From an uncultured Parabacteroides sp. (lineage in GTDB: Bacteria > Bacteroidota > Bacteroidia > Bacteroidales > Tannerellaceae), in the NCBI GenBank assembly GCA_947036995.1, contig CAMQTD010000002.1:1-44190 (forward strand): a stretch of DNA of 44,190 bases. Direction: 5' to 3'. Shown here in pieces: positions 29,049 to 30,943 of the stretch. The first letter of the stretch is position 1, and each line of letters opens with the position of its first letter. Below the pieces are notes generated by a model. The model had not been told where the DNA came from. It worked only from the letters and a program-made list of their open reading frames with translations, and searched no databases. The position numbers and the translations under genes are program-made.

Positions 29049-29206
29049 GTATATGTATGTCTGCTGCAAGTTTGATAATTGCTGCAAAGGTTGTGTATTG
29101 ACGTTTTGTGGAGGGAGTGAAGTCTGTGCACTACTATCTATGCGTAATTTTCAAAAATGGGCATAAAAAAAGAGGAAACAACTATAAAGTTATTTCCTCT
29201 TTGTGA

Positions 29207-29278
29207 GCGAAAGACGGGGCTCAAACCCGCGACCCTCAGCTTGGAAGGCTAATGCTCTATCAACTGAGCTACTTTCGC
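29207..29278 (-). tRNA. tRNA-Gly (anticodon TCC)
   Basis: Minus strand GCGAAAGTAGCTCAGTTGATAGAGCATTAGCCTTCCAAGCTGAGGGTCGCGGGTTTGAGCCCCGTCTTTCGC. 7-bp acceptor stem, GGTTTGAGCC T-loop, anticodon loop CTTCCAA. Confidence 0.96.
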
Positions 29279-29289
29279 AAATAAATAGT

Positions 29290-29371
29290 GGGCAGTGATG
29301 GATTCGAACCACCGTAAGCGTAAGCTATCTGAGTTACAGTCAGACCCATTTGGCCACTCTGGTAACTGCCC
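29290..29371 (-). tRNA. tRNA-Tyr (anticodon GTA)
   Basis: Minus strand GGGCAGTTACCAGAGTGGCCAAATGGGTCTGACTGTAACTCAGATAGCTTACGCTTACGGTGGTTCGAATCCATCACTGCCC. Anticodon loop CTGTAAC, long variable arm, acceptor GGGCAGT/ACTGCCC. Confidence 0.96.
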
Positions 29372-29421: not shown

Positions 29422-29630
29422 CTTTAGAGTAAAAAAATGCACATAATATTCGATTATTTTTAAAAAAAGGCATTTTAGCCTTGTAAATGTACCAAATAGA
29501 GGGAATATGGGATCTAAATTGATTTTCTTTTACTAGAGAGGTAAAACGGATTCTATATTGCTCTTTTATATTCGTAGCTTGAATTTTTAAAATAATACTC
29601 CAATTTTGCACGAATATAAATAATTGTAAT

Positions 29631-29638
29631 TATATTTG
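29631..29638 (+). promoter_or_regulatory. Bacteroidetes-type -7 element TATATTTG (TTTG at 29605-29608, spacing 22)
   Basis: Matches TAnnTTTG; no long ORF immediately downstream. Confidence 0.45.
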
Positions 29639-29644
29639 TCCCGA

Positions 29645-29908
29645 CGCATAGTTCAACTTGTAGAGATAAGTAGCTATTGCGGTTTTGTTGAAAACAAAAA
29701 GCGTTAACGATATTATCCTTCTATGAAATCTAGACAATTTCTCAATCCAGGGGTGATAAACAATGACGCTCATGCTTGTGTTATATATTCATGTAATGTG
29801 ATTTTATATATCATAAAGCGTGGGCAATTGTTTTTTATATTACTCAAGAACAGGCAGTCGAGAGCCTCACTATCGTAATATTAAAACAATTCCCACGCTT
29901 TTTTTATA
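29645..29908 (+). ncRNA. Candidate structured non-coding RNA or long leader ending in a strong hairpin plus T-tract
   Basis: Begins after the -7 element at 29631-29638. Ends with AAAGCGTGGGcAATTGTTTT (29815-29834) pairing with AAAACAATTCCCACGCTTT (29883-29901) followed by T's. The loop has nested pairings ATATTAC/GTAATAT and AGGC/GCCT. Confidence 0.4.
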
Positions 29909-29960
29909 TCCATAAACGAACAGCCAGCCGAGGGGGATCGTATGGCTAGCTTATAACATT

Positions 29961-30041
29961 ATGAAAAGAAAAGAACGAGCCTTACTTGTAGCGTTGATTT
30001 GTAGTGTATCGAATACGAACGATAATACCTCAAAGCCATGA
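29961..30041 (+). CDS. Candidate 26-aa leader ORF overlapping the next start codon (ATGA)
   Basis: ATGAAAAGAAAAGAACGAGCC... = MKRKERALLVALICSVSNTNDNTSKP*. Its TGA (30039-30041) overlaps the ATG (30038-30040) of the next ORF. Confidence 0.4.
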   Translation: MKRKERALLVALICSVSNTNDNTSKP

Positions 30042-30394
30042 AACCATCCACTACACCTATTTCAAGATATAGAGATAAGAAAGCAATCCGCCACGCTGCT
30101 TACTATATGGGTAGGCGATTAAGTAGCGCCATTTTAGAATTTAGGATGAATAATCAACGATTAAACTATCACGTTACTGGTGCTGCATATGTAATAGAAG
30201 TGCATGTTAGAGCAATTAACCAGCTACTCGAATTGTATAAACAAAACGGAATGAACCTGACCAATAATTTACGTATAAGATTATGTACAGGAGAGAAGGT
30301 CTTTTTTAGTGAGTTTCGTGCTTCGTTTAATGCAGATATTGCGTATTTCAATAGTATATTGCCGTATGATTTAATAATTCGTGATGGAAATTAA
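30038..30394 (+). CDS. Hypothetical protein (118 aa), unrecognised
   Basis: Basic, helix-prone: MKPSTTPISRYRDKKAIRHAAYYMGRRLSSAILEFRMNNQRLNYHVTGAAYVIEVHVRAINQLLELYKQNGMNL... No family recognised; probably coding because of length and coupled start. Confidence 0.65.
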   Translation: MKPSTTPISRYRDKKAIRHAAYYMGRRLSSAILEFRMNNQRLNYHVTGAAYVIEVHVRAINQLLELYKQNGMNLTNNLRIRLCTGEKVFFSEFRASFNADIAYFNSILPYDLIIRDGN

Positions 30395-30809: not shown

Positions 30810-30859
30810 TTCAAACTTATAGGGGGAGGGGAGAGCAATTACCCGCATACTTTTTATGC

Positions 30860-30943
30860 AAAAGCCGCAATGTTTCAGCCTAAAAAGTCTGCAGGTTTTG
30901 ATGTAAAACACTGCGGCTTTTGGGGAGAAACATTGCGGCTTTT
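30860..30943. repeat. 17-bp perfect inverted repeat (AAAAGCCGCAATGTTTC/GAAACATTGCGGCTTTT) with about three degenerate 22-bp direct units between/at the right arm
   Basis: Arms at 30860-30876 and 30927-30943. Units: 30883 aaaagtctgcaggttttgatgt, 30905 aaaacactgcggcttttgggga, 30927 gaaacattgcggcttttccggt. Confidence 0.85.

Follow-up and report, generated by a model that had tools for sequence, protein, structure and literature searches.

An uncatalogued, repeated RNA family that is absent from Rfam 15 lies between the promoter and the start codon of many Bacteroidales genes, and we consider this element likely to be a cis-acting leader that controls its gene by transcription attenuation. One copy lies in the window, the 44,190-nt stretch of DNA analysed here (contig CAMQTD010000002.1 of an uncultured Parabacteroides sp.). 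The original prediction had placed a structured RNA or attenuator ending in a long hairpin at 29600-29945, and a sequence check found each motif that it had named in its place. The region 29640-29920 folds at -73.5 kcal/mol versus -51.0 (sd 4.3) for dinucleotide shuffles (z = -5.3), and none of 200 shuffles was equally stable. The predicted interval is therefore real, but the unit kept across genomes is 29696-29915, and the hairpin described as the terminator, which corresponds to the pairing of strands S3 and S4 below, is only one of two conserved folds. The features of the window copy and of the genes behind it are as follows.

29605-29638, plus strand: Bacteroidota-type promoter, seen in the sequence as TTTG (29605-29608) and TATATTTG (29631-29638)
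29645-29681, plus strand: 5' hairpin lying between the inferred transcription start and the element (predicted fold)
29696-29915, plus strand: conserved RNA element, a 180-bit match in the covariance-model search with model R1
29700-29735, plus strand: strand S1, with the 5' arms of P1 (29700-29706), P2 (29711-29720) and P3 (29725-29729) from fold and covariation, and the P3 loop TCTAGAC (29729-29735) from sequence
29737-29777, plus strand: strand S2, with the 3' arms of P3, P2 (29749-29758) and P1 (29764-29770) from fold and covariation, and the putative antiterminator strand AAACAAT..CTCATGCTT (29758-29777) from covariation and sequence
29777-29815, plus strand: variable hairpin, the spacer between S2 and S3 (predicted fold, sequence)
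29816-29855, plus strand: strand S3, 5' arm of the putative terminator hairpin and antiterminator partner of S2 (covariation, sequence)
29815-29834 and 29883-29901, plus strand: outer arms of the terminator hairpin, AAAGCGTGGGCAATTGTTTT and AAAACAATTCCCACGCTTT (sequence)
29837-29843 and 29875-29881, plus strand: nested arms ATATTAC and GTAATAT (sequence)
29852-29855 and 29864-29867, plus strand: nested arms AGGC and GCCT (sequence)
29857-29863, plus strand: apical loop GTCGAGA (sequence, and strand swap in other copies)
29864-29900, plus strand: strand S4, 3' arm of the terminator hairpin (covariation, sequence)
29899-29905, plus strand: T-tract right after the 3' arm (sequence)
29922-29947, plus strand: hairpin with a GGGGGA loop ahead of the first start codon (sequence)
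29961-30041, plus strand: 26-codon ORF MKRKERALLVALICSVSNTNDNTSKP between the terminator and the 118-aa ORF (ORF list)
30038-30394, plus strand: 118-aa orphan ORF (homology searches)

A nucleotide search of 61 related genomes returned diverged copies that are 65-72% identical to window positions ~29682-29930, and the covariance model R1 was built from an alignment of eight copies. R1 matched 92 of the 125 genomes of the window's family, the Tannerellaceae (best E = 1e-41, full length), and 93 of 344 genomes, from 62 of 195 genera, in an order-wide Bacteroidales sample. In a class-wide sample of 295 genomes, which doubles as the false-positive control for R1, only one genome outside Bacteroidales gave a match. 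Copies are ~175-255 nt long and number up to 23 per genome (Parabacteroides gordonii, G083), with five in G077, which we take to be P. distasonis ATCC 8503, and tandem copies at G087:C5 and G086:C1. The window's genome, which is 80% complete, holds one: an apparent second copy on the reverse strand is the same palindrome read from the other side, and the hairpin matched on contig C80 (E = 0.33) is unrelated. Among named genomes, a pattern scan was positive for Parabacteroides gordonii, goldsteinii, distasonis, acidifaciens and faecis, and also for Bacteroides faecis and clarus, Prevotella histicola, Phocaeicola, Muribaculaceae and termite-gut Tannerella MAGs. A phage search gave a single weak partial match, to an unannotated 4-kb record, an exact pattern scan of viral contigs gave none, and a plasmid collection yielded two P. 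distasonis records with the element in unannotated intergenic DNA.

The original prediction had recognised no known RNA family, and this held: at gathering scores Rfam 15 returned only two neighbouring tRNAs from the window, and permissive scores gave nothing credible. Eight loci with canonical copies also had no match in Rfam 15, and hence none to a known aptamer class. 6S RNA, tmRNA, RNase P RNA, SRP RNA and tRNA were rejected as candidates, as Rfam and ARAGORN found only the two tRNAs, outside the element; these, tRNA-Gly(TCC) and tRNA-Tyr(GTA), are the leader's immediate upstream neighbours, on the minus strand (29205-29371). With regard to a possible conserved protein frame across the interval, copy lengths differ by amounts indivisible by three and the variation is compensatory for pairing.

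By eye and by column covariation, four strands (S1 to S4) were recognised in the element, and they can pair in two mutually exclusive ways. One fold consists of two hairpins, S1 with S2 (P1-P2-P3) and S3 with S4 (the terminator hairpin); the other is one long rod, in which S1 pairs with S4 and S2 with S3. PK3 pairs the stretch before P3 with the stretch past GCCUC, PK2 pairs the stretch past P3 with the stretch before GGGC, and the apical loop pairs with the P3 loop in other copies, the window copy having one mismatch. As PK3 and the loop-loop helix link S1 to S4, and PK2 links S2 to S3, these contacts form one continuous rod with the lower strands. The spacer hairpin between S2 and S3 is shrunk to a few bases, an antiterminator loop, in a compact variant found in other families.

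Covariation among homologues had been proposed as a check on the original prediction, and compensatory changes exceeding those of 500 shuffles and of slid partners were found in both folds. Rod pairs were paired in 80.2% of cells versus 70.4% when shuffled and 40-49% when slid, and two-hairpin pairs in 79.8% versus 76.1% and 40-51%, the alignment behind these percentages having been fitted to a model that carries the two-hairpin pairs. The rod has 542 double-changed cells versus 249 in shuffles, and the two-hairpin fold 42 double-change pairs versus 29.3 (0 of 500 shuffles as high), in copies that are related and hence not independent. Among 75 copies, P2 is 96% paired, with double changes in five of its eight pairs, and the terminator stem is 97% paired. 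A strand-swap test, which is independent of any fitted structure, gave native versus swapped energies across 75 copies of -8.5 versus -1.6 kcal/mol for PK3, -11.8 versus -3.8 for PK2 and -10.9 versus -4.2 for the loop-loop helix. More than 90% of copies beat 95% of swaps for PK3 and PK2, and control pairings shifted by <0.7 kcal/mol. The result was reproduced in 57 other copies, including those of Bacteroides, Prevotella and other families; for P1 and the inner stem of S2 and S3 (AT1, AT2), conservation is too high to make the test informative.

The two folds also compete for the same bases. One S3 base co-varies with both S2 and S4 (C-G-C 14, U-A-U 11, one exception), and the four-strand tetramer GCGU/ACGC/GCGU/ACGC, found in 72 copies, has the coordinated variants GUGU/GCAC/GUGU/ACAC (7 copies) and GCAU/AUGC/GCAU/AUGC (1 copy). 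This bears on the possibility of a single compact knotted RNA, in which P2, P3, the terminator stem and the apical hairpin would coexist with PK2, PK3 and the loop-loop helix in one invariant structure, with a role in protein binding or mRNA stabilisation. Such an RNA is consistent with the compensatory changes seen in P3, the apical stem and the loop-loop helix, each of which falls on different bases. We nevertheless judge it unlikely: the lower strands are shared, the S3 base and the tetramer that runs through all four strands each covary with two partners, and identical S3 bases are used by the terminator stem and the antiterminator.

The position of the element relative to genes is that of a leader. 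The TAnnTTTG (-7) box occurs within 130 nt upstream of 66 of 76 copies, mostly at -51 to -69, versus 4 of 76 in a control region. Family copies average 75% T in the 9 nt past the 3' arm, a start codon commonly follows 35-56 nt past the element on the same strand, and in many copies a hairpin with a GGGRAY/GGGRRC-type loop usually lies between the T-tract and the ATG. The downstream genes are mutually unrelated, with a bias to surface or secreted proteins, SusC and ECF sigma factors. A scan of 67 downstream proteins identified five with SusC/TonB-plug domains and five ECF sigma factors, along with GLUG and other surface repeats, SusD, FecR and many lipoprotein-like starts. At six loci (L065, L088, L082, L035, L070 and L114) the first protein after the element belongs to a ~120-aa family (MSSGESERIAICCVLLDIVEA...) that is found in several Parabacteroides genomes and has no NCBIfam match. 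At four others (L034, L048, L051 and L063) tiny frames such as ATG-AAA-TAA occupy the expected first start codon, the real gene lying 100-300 nt beyond.

In the window, the 26-codon ORF overlaps the start of the 118-aa ORF by 4 nt, so that past the hairpin a plausible start codon is first reached at 29961 rather than 30038. The 30038-30394 gene had been called an orphan, and it indeed has no other match in the 125 family genomes, no Pfam family above cut-off, and no NCBIfam or PDB match. Between this gene and the permease downstream, a GC-rich inverted repeat, AAAAGCCGCAATGTTTC / GAAACATTGCGGCTTTT, with nested copies of AAAGCCGCAGTGTTTT inside it, spans 30840-30935.

The original prediction had offered a choice between a stand-alone sRNA and a regulatory leader. 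The promoter, the T-tract, the start codon and the many unrelated genes support a leader or attenuator, and the sRNA option was not supported. A stand-alone sRNA of ~260 nt would end at the terminator and act in trans, the downstream genes being mere neighbours. The element does have its own promoter and a terminator-like end, and other multicopy sRNAs are present in Bacteroides (PMC11697453). Such an sRNA is made very doubtful, however, by the short, fixed distance and orientation to the start codon, by the extra hairpin in between, and by the SusC, ECF sigma factor and SSGESERIAICC-like gene families, each found downstream of copies from more than one genome. There may still be a short, terminated transcript that has a function of its own.

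Paired sites also distinguish RNA from DNA structure. G.U outnumbers A.C by 642 to 164 (~4:1) in the rod and by 371 to 138 (2.7:1) in the hairpins, counted in the same model-fitted alignment, and by 86 to 2 in the terminator stem. This excess points to selection acting on the sense RNA and not on a DNA palindrome. DNA hairpins of the attC, REP or MITE type, for which symmetric mismatches are expected, were rejected on the rod and hairpin counts. A DNA-level palindrome that serves as a recombination or insertion site for mobile cassettes and puts cargo genes behind the promoter is hardly credible, given the G.U excess, which a DNA hairpin leaves unexplained, and the fixed orientation to promoter and ATG. 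In its favour, the rod is imperfectly palindromic, some copies (L032, L069, L182, L189) have recombinase genes upstream, and in one P. distasonis copy the apical loop is split by an integrase-carrying element of 5 kb that has an 8-bp repeat. That ~5-kb tyrosine-integrase element (L218 2949-7995; G077:C1, ~4572948-4577994) has the repeat TTGGCGAT, and the same copy is intact in another P. distasonis strain (L221). Three Bacteroides loci (L182, L189 and L199) have copies near recombinase genes, with a recurrent ~340-aa protein (…LEANT…) upstream, which suggests that Bacteroides copies ride integrative elements with cargo genes.

The comparative sequence data support a position in leaders, the pairs of either fold and the use of common strands by both, and attenuation is the reading that we prefer. 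The copies combine a same-strand upstream promoter, a sequence-predicted terminator hairpin with a U-tract before the start codon, and an alternative hairpin that excludes the terminator, S3 covarying with both S2 and S4. We infer from this arrangement that termination and read-through occur, that the rod is the ON state and that a trigger exists. RNA polymerase would begin at the TAnnTTTG promoter and make S1 to S4 in order. Were S1.S2 to persist, the GC-rich S3.S4 hairpin and the U-tract would stop transcription; were S2 to pair with S3 as the antiterminator and S1 to zip onto S4, the long rod would block the strong terminator stem and polymerase would read into the gene. The choice between folds could be made by a trigger acting on S1.S2, which might be a small molecule, a protein or polymerase pausing.

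The stem that adjoins the U-tract has an energy of -13.6 kcal/mol in the hairpin fold versus -3.6 in the rod. Pseudoknot-free thermodynamic folding makes the rod the minimum-energy fold in 71 of 75 copies, so that the hairpin fold, by a rough estimate ~6 kcal/mol above the rod on average, may exist only briefly or arise kinetically. A short stem, AAGCG.CGCUU, also closes the rod next to the U-tract, so the rod might terminate as well. The window copy is among the 4 of 75 in which the two-hairpin fold dominates: it keeps both hairpins but lacks PK2, PK3 and a perfect loop-loop match (-1.6, -2.7 and -5.1 kcal/mol). It is therefore predicted to remain in the terminating fold, or to be decaying. 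Decay, recombination between two copies or misassembly could account for this atypical copy; in a synteny check for misassembly, the upstream TPR gene and the downstream permease showed no useful conserved neighbourhood in the match tables.

Bacteroidales are dominant gut bacteria whose surface proteins set their diet and their encounters with host and phage, and to our knowledge few cis-acting RNA controls have been described in them. Given its occurrence in ~3/4 of the sampled family genomes, and as many as 23 times in one of them, such a leader would constitute a major layer of regulation that Rfam does not list. Compensatory changes reveal both folds, so a few mutants would be enough to test the proposed mechanism directly, and the numerous natural copies supply variants ready for use. 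More tentatively, and with less confidence than we attach to attenuation itself, the family may be an order-wide, riboswitch-like Bacteroidales class that answers a common cellular signal, governs a large regulon of surface genes and works by four-strand exchange between two complete folds of similar energy. We know of no described switch with such a rod/two-hairpin, four-strand architecture.

Like trp-type leaders and riboswitch expression platforms, the element combines a promoter with a U-tract terminator ahead of the start codon, and one of its strands is common to the terminator and an alternative hairpin. It differs from them in that S1 also pairs with S4, so that both states are complete global folds, and in its many copies before unrelated genes, and neither a known aptamer nor a leader peptide was recognised in it. 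Global second-messenger riboswitches such as the c-di-GMP classes occur in many copies per genome, before diverse, surface-biased genes and occasionally in tandem. The element shares all of these traits, but unlike those classes it has no Rfam match. With the FopS/GibS sRNAs it shares multiple copies in Bacteroidales, own promoters and a link to SusC (PMC11697453). FopS RNAs are ~65-70 nt, trans-acting and mostly intergenic or antisense, whereas the element, at ~175-255 nt, is about three times longer and lies in 5' leaders, and membership of this group was rejected (PMC11697453). Our literature search found no description of the four-strand architecture, nor was one seen in main-text passages of Fremin and Bhatt (2021), with which the comparison was by description (PMC8040213). 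Their 3161 candidates include palindromic Bacteroidetes RNAs with predicted terminators, for example HMP2_4205 and HMP2_1032 (PMC8040213). The element resembles these candidates in being palindromic, terminator-like and from Bacteroidetes, and as far as their descriptions go, part of the family could be among the 3161 (PMC8040213).
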